DNA from: Mucor racemosus
Taxonomy: Eukaryota > Mucoromycota > Mucoromycetes > Mucorales > Mucoraceae
DNA length: 64,000 nt
Reading direction: 5' to 3'
Assembly (NCBI GenBank): GCA_027405735.1
Contig: JAPEHQ010000002.1
Span: forward strand, 992,001 to 1,056,000
Part shown: positions 11,116 through 21,361 of the stretch, piece by piece
Layout of the letters: every line of letters starts with the position of its first letter
How positions within the stretch are numbered: position 1 is the stretch's first letter
Made by a program: the position numbers and the translations under genes
Notes under the pieces: generated by a model
The model's input: only the letters and a program-made list of their open reading frames with translations
What the model was told of the DNA's origin: nothing
Database searches by the model: none

Positions 11116-11769
11116 ATGCCAAGGAGACCAAGACATTCCATTATAATCGACCATACAGTGGCAAAGGTCATTAGTAAAAAATCAACTAAAATTTCAACAA
11201 GAAAGCCTCTTGAGGGAAAGAAACAACTCCATGACACGACTTTGAAGGCAATAAAACCCCATTATCGCCTCTCAGTAGAAAAGTCATCAACTAAGACCAT
11301 TGGCAGCAAACTTATAAAAAAGGTCAAGAAAAGTGTTGAATCAAAAAAGCAACAGCAAAAATGTCTCAAAACACAGCCTAATCCCATTGATTCATTACGA
11401 TACGAATTTGCTTGTAAAAACTTGACATTATCTCATGCTTTGGAATCAACTAAAGAGAATAAACGACACAAAATACAATTTGGAAATTATCTTATCGACA
11501 CATGGTTTATATCTCCTTATCCACCTGATTTTTATACTCAATCCAAATTCTTTATATGTGAATTCTGCTTTACTTCTATGAAGACAGCCTCAATGGCTAA
11601 AAGACACAGCAGCAAATGTTTCGTAAAATGTCCTCCTGGTGATGAAATTTACAGGCAAGGGAAAATATCCATATTTGAAGTAGCAGGCCATAAAAACAAG
11701 GTAAATAAATATGCACTCTTTTATAATACCTTTACTAAATTTGGGTTAATCATCTTAACTATAGATGTA
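11116..11769 (+). pseudogene. MYST histone acetyltransferase, 5' fragment
   Basis: An exon from ATG 11116 encodes a basic N-terminus, then from about residue 125 the start of a MYST domain: IDTWFISPYPPDF, then the C2HC zinc finger FFICEFC...KRHSSKC, then PPGDEIYRQGKISIFEVAGH and KNK at a GTAAAT donor (11700). MYST enzymes (Sas2/Sas3/MOZ type) acetylate histone H3/H4 lysines. The next exon begins after TATAG at 11765 with ATG-TA and is cut by the Fanzor element at 11770. The matching 3' part lies at 20903-21361. The roughly 95-residue segment that carries the catalytic Cys/Glu and the acetyl-CoA Q/R-x2-G-x-G/A motif is found on neither side, so the gene was probably defective before insertion. 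Sas2/Sas3-like assignment is by the IDTW and CEFC motifs only. Confidence 0.85.
11768..11769. other. TA target-site duplication, left copy
   Basis: TA directly before the CTGTAACGGTATA element end; its partner is 20903-20904. Keeping one TA restores the MYST codons ATG-TAT-TTA-ATC. Confidence 0.8.
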
Positions 11770-11782
11770 CTGTAACGGTATA
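11770..11782 (+). repeat. Left terminal inverted repeat
   Basis: CTGTAACGGTATA; matches the right end at 12 of 13 positions. Confidence 0.85.
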
Positions 11783-11938
11783 GCAAGCTAAGTAGTTCAA
11801 AAAGGAAAGAGAGATTTGATTAGTTGACTGGGCAACAAATGTGGAAGGATTTTACTTACCAAAGGTGAATTTGAATTTAGAAGATTAAAGAATGAATTGA
11901 TTTAGTATTGAGTTATGTCTAATGAATATAAACTTACC
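11783..11938 (-). ncRNA. Candidate guide (omega/fRNA-like) region of Fanzor copy 1
   Basis: The 156 bp between the copy-1 stop codon and the element tip is noncoding. In TnpB and Fanzor systems the guide RNA scaffold is encoded at the 3' end of the nuclease gene, running to the element end. Segments shared with the equivalent part of copy 2 are CTCTTTGAGGTA(A/G)GT across the stop, TTGGTAAGTAA, ACTAATCA and the terminal 30 bp. The role is inferred from position and partial conservation only; no structure was computed. Confidence 0.4.
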
Positions 11939-14900
11939 TCAAAGAGCCGAAGCTCTCGTCGTACTACCCCCAACGGAGGGCCAGCTTGTCTGCTGTTTTC
12001 TATCCGAAAATACCAGAGCTAATTGAGAAAACATTGCTTGTTTCGCTGTTGTGTTTTTTGGATCAAAGCAAGGAAAGGTGTAACCAAGCATAAGCTGAGC
12101 AGCACCAGCGAGGCCAATCGCTAATGCAGAAAGACAATCCCTGCTCATGACGACAGACTTATTTGGGCAGGCATCGTTCAAACAAATGAATGACCCATTA
12201 GTCTTCTTGACTGTACCATCTTTTGCAGTATACGGATGTGATAATTTGCTGAAACACCAAAGGCAGGTCTGAGAACTGTTGTGTTCATTAGTAATCAATG
12301 TAGGCGTATATCGAGAATGTCTCAGTTCTTTCCAATATCCACCAAATCGCAAATGTCCTTTAATAGGAGACCTGATTGCATGCCCACGATCTCCAATAAA
12401 CATAATAGGGGACGATGATTTCGTAAATTTTCGTTCCTTTGATGCAAGTCTATCATAAAATCGATTTTTCGTTAATTCTAATCGTCTTTTTTATTAGCAG
12501 TCGATCTTGAAAAGTAAAATTGACGAATACATGACTTTGCTTGAGAATGGCGAGTGAATGTTGCATCCAGTTCATCAATTGTACCACATTGCTGTATACT
12601 GGACTCAGAAAGATCGCTTTCAAGATCAGCAACATTTTGACCTAAGACTGTGAGGCGCTTTCTTCTATTGAGCGAAGACGAAAAAGAAGCAAGACCACTA
12701 TGTTGGCGGAGGGCGGCACTCCTTACCTTGAATGATGTGGGCAATTTCTTCAACTGAGCGTCTTCTTTCTCTTCCATATAAGCGTCTTCTAAAATTTGTG
12801 CATTGAAAATTAGCCACAAGCAAGATATCAACGAGCATTAAATTACCTTGATCTTGTAATACTTGAAAGCGATTGTACAAACGAAGATGATATTTCAACC
12901 TATCGACACCAAAAGCAACTGTCTCCGTGACATTAATAATACCGTTGTCTGTCCCTGAAAATACAAGTTGGTCTTTATCTACTTTTTGATCAATAATACA
13001 CTCCTCCACCTTGTGATGGCAAGGTTTGTTGGGCTCGACTGGTATTATCTGTCTTCTTTCAGTAGAGGAGGTAGCGTCATATCTCTGCTTGTAGATGTTA
13101 TTATTGGCACTGGACAGTTCTTGCTTTGCTTTCACTACTTCTTGAATCAATTGTCTCTTCTTTTTCTTGGCCACTTGTATCTCTTTATGCAGCGAGTCTC
13201 TATCTATATTTTCATCATTCCATTTTTTTTTCAGTTGAGAAGCACTTTCTGAACCAAGTAGATATTTATTAAGTGTAATTTGAGCGTTCTTCAACCTTTT
13301 CTCTACTGTGATCTTCTGGTCAATCAATGCTGCAATTCTGCTGTTGATCTCATTGCTTCTTGTGGATGTCTGAGTCACAGGAGGTTGCTGTTTATTCTTC
13401 TGTTTATGCTTTTGGTAATTTCTAGTACCAAGGATTCTCACACACTGAAGTCCAGGTAGTACATGCATACGGTAGGCAAATTGCGACCCGTAGCCAGCAC
13501 ATATTGTTTTTAGACGATCTATGTCGAAAAAACTACTAAACACAGCATCCTTTTGAGACGTAACTGAAGCCGCACGAATGACGTTCCCTTCGAAATCATG
13601 GAGTACCATCTTATGTTCCAGCTTTCGAGCACAAAACAAAGAGTGTAATGTAGTAGCATCAATCCATAACGCGTGCAGATTTGTAGGCCTGATGATGGGG
13701 GACAATTTCACCACTTGCCCATGGTAACCAACAGAACGCAATACTTGATTAACCATCAAGAGAAAGGGAATTTGATGTGAAAAGACATGGTATGTGGCTC
13801 TAGATGCCATGTATGGCTTTACGAATTTAATAATCTTCAAGATGACCTCCACTTCTTTGTCGCTAATGTTGCTCAATTTACCAACAAAATATGCTTTGCA
13901 AATTGTTTTTTCCTCAAAAAGAGCTGCTCTTGTTATCTGCTTTAACTGGTTTATTCTTTTTCGCGAGGTGTCCTCTTCTACCAAAATATCTTCCATGTCA
14001 ACATCTTGAATCTCTTCTTCTACCAACGCTTCTTGCATTTTGATACCTTGCTCTTCTTGTTGTTGATGTTGCTGCTCTCGTCTCACTTGCCGCTTTTGTT
14101 TCTAGAAGAAGGATGTTTAATATACTTGTTCAATTCGATTGTCCATCAATCTTACCTCTCTTTGCAAAACATCTGCATATGAGTTCAGTCTTTGCTGACA
14201 CAAGCTAGCTTTCCATTGCTTGACAACCCAATATCCTCCTTTCTCGATATAACGATTCCTTTTTTTAATCTCATCAGCGAAAAGCCTTCTGCGTCCATTA
14301 TAAGTTTTGTTGATGAGTGACATTGAGTTTACTGGAATGGCACAATTGTTGTTGGGAGGCTGTCTATTTTTTCCTTTATTCTTTCCTTTGAGCTCCTCGC
14401 GTTTCTTCTTGAATTCTTGATCACGAGCAGGAGATAAATGGACAATCAATAGAATATTCAAGAGCCTGTTCAATGCTTTGTTTACGATTGTATTATCTGC
14501 CCACATATTCATGAAATTGGCGATATAAACATTTCTTGCCATTTTCATAACGTGAGACGACAAACCATTGTAAACATTCTCTTCATCACGCCCAAGTAAA
14601 TTTACTATTACTTTATGAAGTCGTGCCGTATTCGGGGTGGATTTGCTAATTCCTTTTGATCCAAAGTAAGTTGAATGGATTTGATCAAAGTGAGCCTCTT
14701 GGAATAATGCATTGTACTCTTCTTTCAGGCTATCAGTCTGCAGGAATTGACTATTTAAGGGCTTAGGCACAATCACATCCTCGTGTAGATATCCTACTGG
14801 TAACACTGGATTGAGACTTTGTCCCTCTTGGTGCACTAATTGAATATTGCCGCTATTTGTGATAAATTGATTGTCTTTGAAAAGCAGCAACATTTTCATT

Positions 14901-15550
14901 ACTTGCTTGCTGAAATCAGCCAAGTAATCTGAAGCTTGTTCAATGGTTTTATTGATAGTACCAATGAATGTTGATCGACAATTTTGTGGCAAATCCTTTC
15001 GAATAACTGATGAGAAGGATGTGGAGCAAGTTCTATGTGCTACGTCGTCTTCTACTTCATTATCATCTATTTCTTCCGGTTCTTCTTCATCTACTTCTTC
15101 TTGCTCTTCAATGCCTTCTTGAGCTGCAGTGGATTCTTCTTGTATCGTTACTGAATCTTTGAGGGATTCGAAATTTTCTTTTACATAGTCTTTCCAATGT
15201 TCAATGCTTTTCTTTTTGGTTGTTCTTGTTACACGATTTAGATACACTACAATTGAATTTACTGGTGCATTGATGCTCTGTTCAGCGCTCGAGACCACAC
15301 CTCTTGGAAGTTGTTTTAACTGCATCAATGTTTTGTATAAATCATCGAAAGACTCGTTTTTATCATGGCATGTTTTGATATGCTTTATGATTCTATGTCT
15401 AAATTGAGTTTTCAACGAGTTCATATAAGCTTCATCATCATCAGTTGTTGCTCTTCTACGACTAGTTGTTTGTGTTTCCAAAGTTGCTGGTAAATTTCTC
15501 CTTGTAGTTCCAGGAACGTATATATTTAATTGTTTTCTTTTTATGTGCAT
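11939..15550 (-). pseudogene. Fanzor-like RuvC nuclease (TnpB/OMEGA family), copy 1, one frameshift
   Basis: Three exons: 14156-15550, 12847-14101, 11939-12788. They total 3500 nt, one short of 1167 codons. The missing base maps to an A6 run (T6 on +, 12487-12492). After it, the frame matching copy 2 (KRRLEL..., RFYDRL) continues to the stop, so the product would be about 1166 aa. The first about 700 residues are not recognisable by eye; a charged coiled coil covers about 715-805. The C-terminus has the TnpB/Fanzor signature: RuvC-I Asp in FSGTDNGIIN (about 850), a GDRGH...KG segment, Glu in NEHNSS (about 1052, the displaced Fanzor-type glutamate position, inferred), a zinc finger CLWC ... 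CLNDAC, and RuvC-III Asp in SRDCLSALAIG (about 1101). Such proteins are RNA-guided DNA nucleases. A single homopolymer error in the assembly would make it intact. Confidence 0.85.
12487..12492 (-). other. Homopolymer frameshift in Fanzor copy 1
   Basis: Six T on + (six A in the gene). Upstream frame ends SRSTANKKDD-stop; downstream frame begins KRRLELTKNRFYDRL, aligned with copy-2 QRRRLELKKGRFYDKL. Confidence 0.8.
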
Positions 15551-15619
15551 TGAGATGTTATTACAATAGACAAAGAAGAAAAGAAAGATCAAATGTTGTC
15601 GATGCTAATACATTCAATG

Positions 15620-15661
15620 TTGGCCAACAGCGGGGTTTCCTCGCTCACGCTGTGGGGCCAA
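15620..15661. repeat. GC-rich stem-loop upstream of Fanzor copy 1
   Basis: Imperfect inverted repeat: TTGGCC and ACAGCG on the left pair with CGCTGT and GGCCAA on the right. An alternative inner stem is AGCGGGG/CCTCGCT. It stands out as GC-rich in an AT-rich element. Role unknown. Confidence 0.6.
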
Positions 15662-15760
15662 ATCAGTCCAAATGATTTATTTGGTTTTGCAGAATGTCAA
15701 GTTCGCAAGTTGTTAAAAAAGGTTAATTGCAGATATATGAACCTCTTTGTTGTTTTGATA

Positions 15761-15937
15761 TTATACCGTACATGCCCTAGTGAAACTTTCAGTATCAGGT
15801 ACAAACGTTGGGTGATTTTGATCTACAGTATCCATGAGAACATACTGGTTTTCGATTTCTGCTTCGATTTCTTCTTCATCTTCAATAATAAGACGTCTTT
15901 TATAAATATTATTCTCAGTAGGAGGTGGGGAGCTCAT
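15761..15937 (-). CDS. Small acidic ORF between the Fanzor genes
   Basis: ATG at 15937 opens a 58-codon frame: MSSPPPTENNIYKRRLIIED, then an acidic stretch (EEEIEAEIENQ) and DQNHPTFVPDTESFTR, ending at 15761. Its composition is protein-like and the strand is that of copy 1, so it may be an upstream exon of copy 1, a small element-borne protein or a remnant. A possible donor (ACTAG/GGCATG region) is not convincing. No family recognised. Confidence 0.4.
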   Translation of the reverse strand: MSSPPPTENNIYKRRLIIEDEEEIEAEIENQYVLMDTVDQNHPTFVPDTESFTRACTV

Positions 15938-16149
15938 GTTTCGTTTTGTATAAAAATAATGCTTTAAGTAAAATATTGATGACAAGTATGTAGATTTTGA
16001 TTATTTATTATCTAGTAGCTAATATATTAGGTAAATCTACAGGAGAATCAAAAGATAGTTTTCTTTATTTATAGTGTTTTCAAGGGCTATTAATACAAAT
16101 AAACCGAAACAAACTACTGTGCGACTCTTATTACCAACATGTCAAAGGT

Positions 16150-16175
16150 TTTTCACAAGTTTTGACTTGTGAAAA
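16150..16175. repeat. Perfect hairpin, 11-bp stem
   Basis: TTTTCACAAGT, loop TTTG, ACTTGTGAAAA. Lies in the divergent region between the two Fanzor starts. Confidence 0.85.
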
Positions 16176-16307
16176 CTACTACTGTCCATGCATATTTTTT
16201 AGTATAAGCAACTCAAACCAAGTATCGTCAAGTTTATTGACTTCCATATTTAGAAATAGACAAAAATTAACTGGATGAAACTGGTTTTAAGTAGGGAAAT
16301 TTTTGGA

Positions 16308-16332
16308 TTTATTCAGTGTTTGACTGAATAAA
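16308..16332. repeat. Perfect hairpin, 10-bp stem
   Basis: TTTATTCAGT, loop GTTTG, ACTGAATAAA. Similar geometry and TTTG-containing loop to the hairpin 150 bp away. A third palindrome, TTCCCCTTGGGGAA, lies near 16505. Confidence 0.85.
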
Positions 16333-17101
16333 GCTCACAAAAACCAGGGAAAATTTCAATAAAAAATAATAAATTCTGGAAGTAAAACTCTATCATGAAC
16401 CTGTCAAGCTTAATCTAATATTAATATTTGAATTTTTTTATTAAACAACTTAATATTTAACTCTGATTTGTACTTTTAGTTATTATACATTTTATTATGT
16501 ATTATTCCCCTTGGGGAAAGCAAGTGTTTCACTTTTAAAGCCTTTATACTCGCTAAGAAATCAACATGTATAGAAATAACTCTTTTGGCAATATTCTGTA
16601 GAATCTCAAGTATAGCCTTGCATTTTTTATTTTCTGATTATCCATTGAAATAGGTGCAGGCTCCGATTTTGAATCTGACCATATAAAATTATATATTTTG
16701 CAGATATTTATACTTGACTGAGCTTAAATCCACATCTGCCAAATGCATTTTATTTTCACTGTTTGTATCGACATCGTAGACATTATGACTCAAACTCATC
16801 TGAAAGGGGGAGAAAGCTTAAACTATTTTGAATGATAGCTCAGTACAGAGAAATCTTTGTTAGTTATTGCATATACATACATATAATTGATTATTAGTAA
16901 AGCCTTTAAGCGACTATCCATTACAGCAATTTGCTAGACATTTCCATTGAACCTAATTTATCAATTCGATTGTTATCAATGTCAATTTAACATTTAATAC
17001 AACAGGACTGCGCCTTTAAAGCTGTTTATTATGTACGAGCACAATATTTGAGCCCTCTTCCTTTTCTTTATCTTGTTATAGCATATACATTATTATTCAA
17101 A

Positions 17102-20100
17102 ATGAGAAGAAGAAAAAGACAATTAGATGTTTATATTTCAGGCACAACCACCATAAACCCTCCAGTCTCATTTGAAGATGATGGCCAAGGATGTCATAAT
17201 AGGAGGCGTTTAACATCCTATGACAAAGCAAACTACATGAGTGTTTTAGAATCTCAATTCAAGATTAGACTTGTAAATTCAATCGAGCAATGTAAAGACC
17301 AGAAATATGATAAACTTTACGAGATTCTTCTGAAAGGTATAAGACTTCCCAAGGGTGTGGTAACCAATGCTGCAGCAAGTATCAATGTCGATGCTGCTTC
17401 TGTTGAATCATTTTTGCGAAATGAGTGTAAGAAAACAAAGAAAAAGAGCGTAGAATACTGGACAGATTTTGTTCGAAAAAACTTCGTCACCGCAAAGCAC
17501 TCTATTTTGAACAATGAAGCAAGTACATCATCTACTGATAACAGAAGAGATGATGATGATGATGATAGTAATGATGATAGTAACGATGATATGGATGAAG
17601 ATTAAGATGAAGATGTCGATGATGAAGATATCGGTGAATATGAATACAGCACGCAGTACAGAGCCTACTCTACTTCTCTTCGATCAGTGCTTCGATCAGA
17701 CTTATCTCAACAAGCTCAATCATTGTTTACAAGCACTATCAACGACAACATGCAATCTGTCTCAGACTATATATCTGATTTTAGTAATCAAGTCTTCAAA
17801 ACAATTCTCGTATTCAATAAATATAATTTTGTCTTGGAAAATCATGCTGTGTCACTTGTCGCTCATGAGGGCAACAAGATATCTCAAGCCTTGCCTGAAG
17901 GGTACTTGGAAGAAGATGCTTCAGTTGCTAAACCCTTGAATCCTAACTGTTTAGAAGATGAAGACTTCAAGGCCAACTACGACAAACTGTTTCAAGACTC
18001 ACATCTGGAACTCATTCATTCAACATTCTATGGTGCAAAGGGCGCCCAAGACTCGTCGTTGAAGACACATATTCTTCATAAATCAATAGTAGATGTATTG
18101 GGTCGTGATGAAGTAAACCTCTACAAAGACTTATCTTCACACGTGACAAAGATGGCTCGCCAGTTGTATTGCATCAATTTTCATAAAATGTGGTCAGACA
18201 ACACCATTGTGAACAAACTGCTGACAAGGCTCTTGCGATTCCTCTTAATCATACATCTTTGCCCTGATCAAGATAATGATTTCAAGGCTAACAAGGCAAA
18301 ACATCAGAATAAAGGCAAAAAAGCAACGAGAAGGGTTACTAACTGCAGAATACCAGAGGAACGTATTTCTTTGTTACGTATGACCAGGAATGGAAGAAGA
18401 AGGCTGTTTGCTAATGAGGAAAAGAAACGAATCAAGTACTTACAAAAGGGAAAAGAGTTATCTGCAAGTTCGTGCCAGAGGAGATTAGACACATACAGAC
18501 AAGTACTTGAAAGAGAGGTAAACATACTTCAACTTTGAATATTACAAGGGCATTAAATAACATTTTGTGTTACTCATGTAGCGTGAAGAGAGGGATTCTG
18601 GTTGGAAAGAAAAGCCGGAAAATAAGAAAGGACGAAAAGATGACAATGATGATGATGTAGAGGATGTTTTAGTTAGAGATGATATCAATGCTGAAAAGAC
18701 CAAGGATACTCCCAGAAGAAAGATTGGACAATTGTTACAAGTTACAAGTAACAAGATCAGCATTATTTCAAACACAAACGGTTACAAGACGCTATTTTGA
18801 AATGAAGCTCAAGAACCTTGGTGACAAAGAATATAAGACAATCATAAAGATAGTGAATTTCGTAAAACCCTATATACCATATAAAGATAACTATTATCTC
18901 TTTCAATATCAAGTCCCTTTTGTCTTGATGGCAAATCAAGTGTTACGATCAATTGGATACGATGGTCAAGTTGTGAAATTAATGCCAATTATCAAACCGA
19001 CTGCTCTCCACTCCTTCCTTGTTGATACAACAATGCTTTATGCGCTCTTTTGCTCAAAGCAATGCAGACAAAGAATGTTTGTTTTGGATTTCAAAGGCAA
19101 CCGTATCAAACAAGGTTCAGCCCTTGCTAATAAAGATGCTGCCTTTAGCGCATTTTTCAATATGGATCAACTAAAAAAGATATCGTCAAGCTACGGACTA
19201 CAGTTTGCAAATAGAATCCACATTCTTCCTGGACTGAAGACTATCAGAATATATGGCACAGTAGATTATATTCAACAACGTCAGAAAAAACCAAAAGCAA
19301 TCAATAAATCAATAGCTCAGGATGAGGATGACAGATTGAAGGCTTTGAATAATCGTAGATCTGATTTGGAGACGTTGTTTAAGGAACGAAGAAAAGAACT
19401 GGATCAGTTTATTTTTACAACCAAGAGTGTTCGTGCTTCGAAAAGAGATTGGAAAAACAAGGTAGCTGATCGAAATAAGTACTATCGTGAAGTTGAAATG
19501 ACAAAGTTGAAAAAGAGGGAATTAATGATTGGCATTCGCGATGTACGACAAGATCTTCAGTCATTAAAACGACAAATATCCGAATATCGAAACCCCTCAA
19601 CTGCTTTAACATCGACTACATCACCGAACCCATTTATTATCAATAGCAAACCTTGTCATAAAAAAGTTGAAGAATATATGCTTGATACTGACGTGAATTT
19701 AGATGATGTAGTATTCAGTGGAACTGACAATGGCATCATCAAGACTACCGAGACAGTTTATTTTGATATCAATCGATTTACATTCCATTTAGAGCTATAC
19801 AATCGATTCCAAATCTTAGGTAATATGACACAATAGTCCTTAAGCACATGCAAGATAAAACTAATCTATACGCTTATCAATGTTAGAGGATGCCATGGAT
19901 ACAGACGATATGTACAATTTAGAATGCATGAAACTGCCTCTTTCTCTCACGATCGGTCCAAAGGAAATCAATTAAGGTGGTGGATTGGATTCATATACCA
20001 AACCAATTGTTCAAAAGAAAAAGTCGACAACAGAAGGGTATGTGGTCTTGGACGAAGAAGAGAAGTTATCAAATTACAACTTACATCAATGCCAAACAGT

Positions 20101-20725
20101 TGAAGAGTTACAAGAAGCAATCTCTCATCACTGCGATGCTCGTGAAAAATTGCGTTCGTTTTATTACAGCAATTCGCAGTGTAAACAGAGACGAAGATTG
20201 GAATTGAAGAAGGGAAGATTTTACGACAAGTTGGCAGCAGATGAAAGAAAAGCCTCTGGAGCTAAAAGGCCTATTATGATGACTGGTGACCGTGGACACG
20301 GTATAGGCTCACGTATAAAGAAGCATCAGAGATTTGGCGGGCACTGGAAAGAGTCAAGACATGGTCTTTATACACCTACCCTTATCACAAATGAGTACAA
20401 TAGCTCTTAGACATGTCTCTTCTGCTACTCCAAGCTTTCTCATCCTGTTGGTGTTGTTGCTGGTAGAATCAAGACTGTCAATGGTTCGTTTATATGTCTC
20501 AATCAAAAATGCCCAAATGCATTTAAAGTGGTGTGTCGGGACCAGGTATCGGCGTTGGCTATTGGTTTGGCTGGTGTGGCCCAACTTCTTTTTGGTGTCA
20601 CTTTTCCTTGTTTTGATGAAAAGTCAAATTATACAAATCGGATCAAATTCAATGATTTAGCCCTTGATTTTTTGTACAGGAAACAACGAATGGGCTCGCC
20701 GCTTGATGGCGGCAATACTCTTTGA
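17102..20725 (+). pseudogene. Fanzor-like RuvC nuclease (TnpB/OMEGA family), copy 2, multiply broken
   Basis: Three exons at positions equivalent to copy 1: 17102-18517, 18582-19819, 19887-20725, 3493 nt. Removing a 7-bp tandem duplication (TTACAAG x2, 18735-18748) leaves 1162 codons in one phase. In-frame stops are TAA 17603-17605 (acidic linker), TAA 19973-19975, and TAG 20408-20410, where copy 1 has a CAG Gln. The alignable regions include the start (QLDVYISGTT against QLNIYVPGTT), FVKPY...VNQVLRSVGY-like blocks, RuvC-I GTDNGIIK, the GDRGHG...KK segment, NEYNSS, the zinc finger CLFC ... CLNQKC and RuvC-III CRDQVSALAIG. Similarity to copy 1 is moderate, so the two are old paralogues, not a recent duplication. 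It is not expected to give a full-length product. Confidence 0.88.
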
Positions 20726-20889
20726 GGTAGGTAATACATAGCTTATATAGAATGATGTACTAAATATTACTTACTCTTCAAACCCTTTTTCAAATCAAAT
20801 TATTTTTATTGGTAAGTAATCAATTTATACTCTTTTTATGCACTGGACTAATCAGACTCCCAATTGCTTCTTTTGGACACATAAGTTAA
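20726..20889 (+). ncRNA. Candidate guide (omega/fRNA-like) region of Fanzor copy 2
   Basis: The 164-bp noncoding tail from the copy-2 stop to the right inverted repeat is nearly the same length as that of copy 1 (156 bp), with shared short blocks (GGTA(A/G)GT after the stop, TTGGTAAGTAA, ACTAATCA). Assignment as guide RNA is inferred from the known 3' location of Fanzor/TnpB guides. Confidence 0.35.
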
Positions 20890-20902
20890 TATACCATTAC
20901 AG
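20890..20902 (-). repeat. Right terminal inverted repeat
   Basis: TATACCATTACAG on +, the inverse of the left end with one change; followed by TA (20903-20904). Confidence 0.85.
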
Positions 20903-21361
20903 TATTTAATCGATTTTAGCTATCTACTGACTAGGTATGAAAATAAAATTGGCACACCTGAAAAGCCATTATCAGCTTTGGGGCTATTGGGATACCACAA
21001 ATACTGGAATTATACCATTTTAAAGCATTTTAGTCTGAAAACAAGTGGAAAACATGAAAGTATTGATGGTAAAGCATACAATTATACACATTCCCATGAT
21101 CTTTATGCACTAAATCTTCCATATATAATTATAGACATTTCTATAAAAACAGGAATGACTCCTGATGATATTATCGCTACATTACAAAGAAATAATTTAC
21201 TAATTTTCAATAACGGTCAATATGAGTTACATATTAATAAACAAGAGATCAAGCAAAAAATCGCTAAAATAGTATCAAAAAAACAGATCAAGATTGATTC
21301 AAGCAAATTAAAATGGATGCCTTACACCGATGTCAACAGTCTTGATTTCATGCAGGTTTAA
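20903..21361 (+). pseudogene. MYST histone acetyltransferase, 3' fragment
   Basis: Read in the frame set by the TA duplication, this gives YLIDFSYLLTRYENK, then GTPEKPLSALGLLGYHKYW and, near the end, SIKTGMTPDDIIATLQ and DSSKLKWMPY. These are the hallmarks of the C-terminal part of a MYST domain (LIDFSYLLS...SPEKPLSDLG...YW; DI-x-TLQ; L-x-W-x-P). There is no stop between 20903 and the TAA at 21359-21361. Together with 11116-11769 it is one gene interrupted by the Fanzor element. Without its 5' half and promoter this piece should be inactive. Confidence 0.88.

Follow-up and report, generated by a model that had tools for sequence, protein, structure and literature searches.

Elements of the IS607 and IS200-IS605 groups carry a serine or Y1 transposase. 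In their TnpB-bearing members, the motif beside the element is the target-adjacent motif (TAM) of the nuclease and the flank is its guide target (PMC10711439). Crypton is listed among the partners of Fanzor1 in the same source. In Mucor circinelloides, one subfamily (MCi-2A) of the Fanzor1 family MCi-2 contains a partial Crypton gene. MCi-2 shows ATAATTNNNN(N) repeats and was left unclassified, as was MCi-5 in 2013, a Fanzor1 family with 6-bp ATTTAT repeats and a Harbinger-type transposase in some copies (PMC3627910). With MCi-2A, a link between Fanzor and Crypton has already been reported, tentatively. Fungal CryptonF elements combine a tyrosine recombinase with a GCR1_C domain and have short terminal direct repeats without terminal inverted repeats (PMC3212892). 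Here we analyze a locus of Mucor racemosus (genome of 53.2 Mb in 54 contigs) in which two large Fanzor-type genes lie inside a MYST acetyltransferase gene. The window is the whole 64,000-nucleotide stretch of contig JAPEHQ010000002.1 that was analyzed, and the interval examined within it is 11770..20902.

An earlier note had read this interval as one 9.1-kb transposon with two Fanzor genes. Comparison with other copies in the genome indicates that the window instead holds two separate elements, A and B, plus a deletion. In our view it is very probable that two non-autonomous, Fanzor-only elements entered one MYST gene, that a deletion followed, and that both elements had moved via a CAGTA core, most likely in trans by a CryptonF. 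A on the minus strand and B on the plus strand would each have inserted at a native CAGTA of the gene, oppositely oriented and separated by 70 codons. In the presumed order of events, a later deletion at ~6 bp of microhomology would have removed both facing 5′ ends together with the intervening MYST DNA. For each family, recombination would take place at a short core, CAGTA (about CAGTANNN), with a circular intermediate as the most likely route and catalysis supplied in trans by the putative tyrosine recombinase of a 7.5–7.6-kb long form of B. The Fanzor, a presumed RNA-guided nuclease with a presumed guide RNA, would cut the re-formed CAGTA-plus-flank site and thereby favor the element.

The long form of B shares all the features given above for fungal CryptonF elements but has a Fanzor downstream, and most copies of A and B have no recombinase. 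Its core is also different: CAGTA, 5 bp (8 with variable bases), compared to 6 bp for most fungal Cryptons (PMC3212892). The resemblance to MCi-2 extends to a Mucorales Fanzor, no terminal inverted repeats, end repeats with a conserved motif, and 5′ regions that vary while the Fanzor 3′ part is shared (PMC3627910). Unlike in MCi-2 as described there, the core is CAGTA and not ATAATTNNNN(N), an empty site is seen, and both CryptonF domains are present, in a broken frame. Like MCi-5, the families here lack terminal inverted repeats and have repeats of fixed sequence, but these consist of CAGTA and the partner is a Crypton. With the TnpB elements of the IS607 and IS200-IS605 groups they have in common a gene for an RNA-guided nuclease (presumed in A and B) on an element whose recombination uses a short motif (PMC10711439); here, however, the recombinase is of the Crypton type, the motif is CAGTA, and the TAM and guide roles are putative. 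PpFz1 of Parasitella parasitica is also a Fanzor1 of a mucoralean fungus; its TAM is 5′-ATN (PMC11423790), and A and profile A1 had no Fanzor match in solved structures. Within the portions of the literature searched, we found no description of the CAGTA-core families, and one may exist elsewhere.

The left-end query hit 24 places (the window, 22 at 98–100% and one at 67%) and the right-end query 15 (the window, 12 matching all or most of the query at 98–99%, another at 94% and a partial match); these counts are lower bounds. The two ends occur within 10 kb of each other only in the window, and the A–B junction sequence occurs once in the 53 Mb with up to two mismatches allowed, contrary to what a single 9.1-kb element would predict. 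Of the 22 near-identical A places, 20 were retrieved in full (L009–L028) and the remaining two at their ends only; of the 14 B places, 4 were retrieved over ~6 kb (L029–L032) and 8 more at both ends. Three places were left out: C2:246901 and C5:1743452, which are diverged or partial B, and C2:3020511, which has the 5′ end only. All 20 A copies, mutually identical at ~97.5% or more, match the left half of the window over ~4.46 kb (an insertion interrupts L015). In all four B copies the B part measures ~4.7 kb, including ~107 bp of 5′ end missing from the window. Because these single copies of each half extend past the window junction, A and B are best described as two elements lying head to head, each having lost its 5′ end at ~6 bp of microhomology, with zero host DNA between them. 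Members of both families are ~4.5–4.7 kb long, Fanzor-only, and flanked on both sides by CAGTA direct repeats.

Much of what the earlier note had seen at the borders is present: the left tip CTGTAACGGTATA, the right tip CTGTAATGGTATA (as reverse complement), TA outside both, and two large divergent genes with stop codons ~170–177 bp from the tips. As it also stated, no transposase is visible, with no such domain in the 7 scanned of the 9 open reading frames of at least 120 aa inside the interval. The meaning of the borders has changed, though. Two related elements lie head to head, each with its gene-3′ end outermost, which is why the inverted tips match; these tips are not terminal inverted repeats, and TA belongs to the CAGTA repeat and is not a target-site duplication. 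A Tc1/mariner-type element, with TA duplication and terminal inverted repeats, was rejected, as single copies show CAGTA direct repeats and unlike ends. A search of the genome for the tip pattern returned 20 exact matches, but the reversed control pattern returned 12, so the pattern alone says little.

The intact public allele P0025 of the host gene reads MYCLNLC...RKGYGQYLIDFSYLL (divided as MY-CLNLC...RKGYG-QYLIDFSYLL). Between MY and QYLID there are 70 residues in P0025 and 70 in Mucor P0022, whereas in the window MYST resumes directly right of B with CAG TAT TTA ATC. This comparison identifies both TACTG and CAGTA as native codons and shows the window to be 70 codons short, so the exact in-frame rejoining reported earlier (M-Y-L-I) is a coincidence. 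Two insertions followed by a deletion account for the lost codons; excising a single 9.1-kb element does not.

In gene orientation, a single copy is laid out as flank-CAGTA-NNN-5′ end ... 3′ end-CAGTA-flank. CAGTA was present at 19/20 left and 19/20 right ends of copies of the A1 subtype, with AA before the core in 20/20, and at 9/10 left and 10/10 right ends of short B/A2 copies, with T before the core in 10/10. The A1 junctions in this comparison were located by a pattern that itself contains the AA, and L011, which lacks its outer 5′ arm, was excluded; when copies were placed without the AA requirement, AA was still seen in the 18 properly placed ones. The extended core of the two families is about CAGTANNN. 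The three bases after CAGTA were identical on both sides in 7/10 short B/A2 copies (shuffle mean 2.0, p=0.00065), 6/20 A1 copies (shuffle mean 3.0, p=0.014) and 0/3 long forms. CAGTA plus at most one further shared base was found in 14/20 A1 copies. The bases before CAGTA differ (AA in A1, T in short B/A2) despite the high identity among A copies; judged by these bases, target context appears to track the element ends and not the Fanzor. Four A1 copies (L020, L014, L013 and L017) show a longer repeat of 10–14 bp, which continues across a few shared bases into the element's own end.

An empty site was found for the B insertion L031: eight unoccupied members of a host repeat align straight through it. 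Exactly one CAGTATATT is present in three of the eight, and the remaining five are off by one or two bases. From these alignments, the target site most likely already had the CAGTA core before insertion. Reading frames across the joined flanks of 33 copies were mostly uninformative. In L020 the longest frame (185 aa, next 175) was obtained with one CAGTA retained. In L027 the frame was longer (288 vs 95 aa) when the two bases before CAGTA were omitted, which speaks against AA as target sequence at that copy. The right-flank repeat of the A1 copy L012 was rejected as a source of empty sites: it marks the end of a different Fanzor family, a canonical one, and the left flanks are unlike. L012 itself is inserted in a member of that family, at the CAGTA of one of its tips.

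Three B copies (L061–L063) share their 5′ flank, and an A1-type 5′ end lies ~2.8 kb upstream, giving the long forms of 7.5–7.6 kb. Their extra DNA matches NDC10_II (E=3.7e-44 in L062) and GCR1_C (E=1.2e-23 in L061 and, partially, 1.1e-7 in L062). The long form thus has the tyrosine recombinase domain and GCR1_C of a CryptonF, as well as short terminal direct repeats without terminal inverted repeats. Its core is CAGTA on both sides in two of the three; the third has CGGTA at the 5′ side. A 124-bp query made from the A1 5′ end matched all three long forms at 98–100% and 17 of 21 A1 places at 96–100% over 109–124 bp, with two more matched partly. The A1 3′ end, CCCTCT-CAGTA, is the same as that of the long form C26. 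A1 therefore shares its termini with a recombinase-bearing element, as a non-autonomous Crypton does. Given the recombinase of the long forms, the shared ends and the common CAGTA core, the simplest reading of these sequences, and the most likely one, makes A and B non-autonomous elements that the Crypton mobilizes in trans. The earlier note had suggested that mobilization might occur in trans. The suggestion is supported by the occurrence of this end-sharing element, with its CryptonF recombinase in broken frames, in the same genome, the trans step itself being presumed.

Short B shares only its 3′ end with the long form. In the latter, the short B/A2 5′ end is found at an internal CAGTATTT that separates the Crypton part from the Fanzor part, an arrangement like that of two tandem elements with one core in common. 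At their 5′ end, 18 A1 copies (L010, L012–L028) carry a palindrome of ~50–174 bp whose middle is inverted or shortened between copies, as if a hairpin had been repeatedly rearranged. A second Crypton family of ~40 copies is near-identical and young (G000:C2:980617, which is 11 kb left of the window, L064 and L065), and some of its copies lie ~2.9 kb apart. In the one tandem examined, L064, two units have one AATAATAG-type core in common, the arrangement predicted for circle integration. We set this family aside as the mobilizer because that core is of the AATAATAG type and not CAGTA.

The earlier note's assignment of both genes to Fanzor agrees with the published motif D-X(125,275)-[TS][TS]-XX-[C4]-X(5,50)-RD, which occurs in the A protein (1166 aa) with a spacing of 204 and in the B protein (1162 aa) with a spacing of 202, C4 and RD being present in both. 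The TNE...SQTC stretch and RD..SA are also there in the correct order. The motif was found in 0/2100 shuffles and in 0/120 control proteins, which were MYST homologs and mostly shorter than Fanzors (median 451 aa). It was found in 5 of the 18 homologs returned, the other 13 lacking one or more landmark stretches. With the motif present while library and structure searches stay non-significant, we assign A and B by motif to divergent members of the Fanzor/TnpB group. Named Fanzor relatives are mostly from Mucor and Parasitella. In family A, pN/pS is 0.28 over 190 pairs (20 copies) and 16/20 copies have no stop or frame break; in family B it is 0.40 (4 copies) and 0/4 are broken. Both ratios are uncorrected and count only codons with one difference. 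The Fanzor frame is under constraint, and the pattern suggests that the nuclease has been kept working in transposase-less elements and helps them persist. The canonical Fanzor family in which L012 is inserted (L078, G000:C11:327917) has PF07282 above cut-off and DPG and RDINAAKN motifs.

By the TnpB logic outlined in PMC10711439, the Fanzor would use CAGTA as its TAM and have its guide target in the 3′ flank. We are more doubtful of a further step, in which the Fanzor also drives amplification, with CAGTA doubling as TAM and the post-excision site being cut by the element's own nuclease and refilled. On this reading, transposase-less Fanzor elements could reach at least 20 copies, with their nuclease under purifying selection, and exchange Crypton ends among themselves. 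As for homing of the Fanzor into like sites, none of the 33 joined flanks matched the flank of another copy among the matches listed, with 40/93 and 40/235 candidates scored, which gives no sign of it. One genome holds Fanzor-only copies, an end-sharing recombinase relative, an empty site and a precise core, and thus makes testable both the action of the Crypton recombinase on A and B ends and the role of CAGTA as TAM. This bears on how transposase-less Fanzor elements spread and how the nuclease benefits them.

Several observations weigh against two Crypton-moved Fanzor insertions. All three long forms have one or more breaks in the recombinase frame, and no intact source was found. The 5′ end of short B/A2 is TAACTCG... 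and not the Crypton one. The two insertions lie ~210 coding bp apart, and by our own estimate ~0.01 such pairs are expected (~38 copies, 53 Mb), which leaves room for a local preference or a linked event. A single 9.1-kb composite with two Fanzors, moved by its identical outer ends, or a cassette exchange that replaced MYST DNA between inverted cores, would do away with this low chance of two independent insertions in one gene and would also fit the matching inverted tips and the zero host DNA between A and B. We consider it highly improbable: neither the end queries nor the junction search found a second copy, removal does not restore a host gene that is 70 codons short, A and B have both lost their 5′ ends where they join at a microhomology, and both outer ends are gene-3′, whereas the single copies examined have one 5′-side and one 3′-side end. 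Two adjacent insertions followed by a deletion can mimic a novel composite transposon.

The 8-bp repeat in 7/10 short B/A2 copies could also be produced by a cut-and-paste enzyme, and 6/20 A1 copies agree over 4 to 8 bases past CAGTA. hAT elements leave 8-bp duplications. A DDE enzyme of this kind (duplication nnnTAnnn) that prefers CAGTANNN targets would account for the matching CAGTANNN on both sides of these two sets of copies, at the frequencies and p values given above, and for the L031 empty-site relatives, which hold the stretch once. This is unlikely, however, with 14/20 A1 copies sharing so little beyond CAGTA, no terminal inverted repeats beyond TAAC, the Crypton 5′ end on both A1 and the long forms, and a tyrosine recombinase encoded by the latter. 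The nuclease assignment has its own difficulties. Pfam TNB (PF07282) stays below its curated cut-off in A and B (best 14.5 vs 26.3 bits) and passes it at 5 other places in the same genome. The solved-structure search of A and profile A1 gave no Fanzor match, and the best library match, RNA polymerase alpha (E=0.0012), was sub-threshold, far below the cut-off. In the profile test a canonical Fanzor of the same genome ranked ~32nd of 2001 (the rest its shuffles), and hhalign gave a probability of 0.5%; no significant profile match to a canonical Fanzor was obtained. These results would suit an unrelated Mucorales transposon protein, a reading we hold to be very unlikely in view of the full motif in A, B and some of their homologs, its absence from the shuffles, and the ordered TNE...SQTC and RD..SA landmarks.

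Positions of the elements, genes and host sequence in the window
Feature	Position	Strand	Remarks
MYST 5′ part (zf-MYST and first residues of MOZ_SAS)	11116..11700	+	Pfam zf-MYST E=3.3e-17; homologs 57–89% identical
MYST intron GTAAAT...TATAG	11701..11764	+	Next exon begins ATG TAC TG (M-Y-C), matching P0025 MYCLNLC
CAGTA core, gene-3′ end of A	11768..11772	-	TACTG on plus strand; native MYST sequence
Element A (A2 subtype)	11773..16266	-	5′-truncated, ~70 bp and outer core gone (5′ end judged against L009); 97–98% identity to 20 fetched copies over ~4.46 kb
Fanzor-type gene of A	11939..15550	-	Three coding exons; 1-base coding deletion in window copy
A–B junction	16261..16266		~6 bp common to both partners; one occurrence in genome
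Element B	16261..20899	+	5′-truncated, ~107 bp and outer core gone; 95.8–96.2% identity to L029–L032
Fanzor-type gene of B	17102..20725	+	44% identical to A; window copy broken by stops (two) and indels (9-base coding deletion, insertions)
CAGTA core, gene-3′ end of B	20900..20904	+	Native MYST codons CAG TA(T), Q-Y
MYST 3′ part (QYLIDFSYLL...)	20900..21361	+	MOZ_SAS match C2:1012900-1013214; P0025 98% identical over matched part

The closest named relatives of the MYST protein are mostly from Mucor, and a MYST paralog has an intron at the same position as the one listed above.

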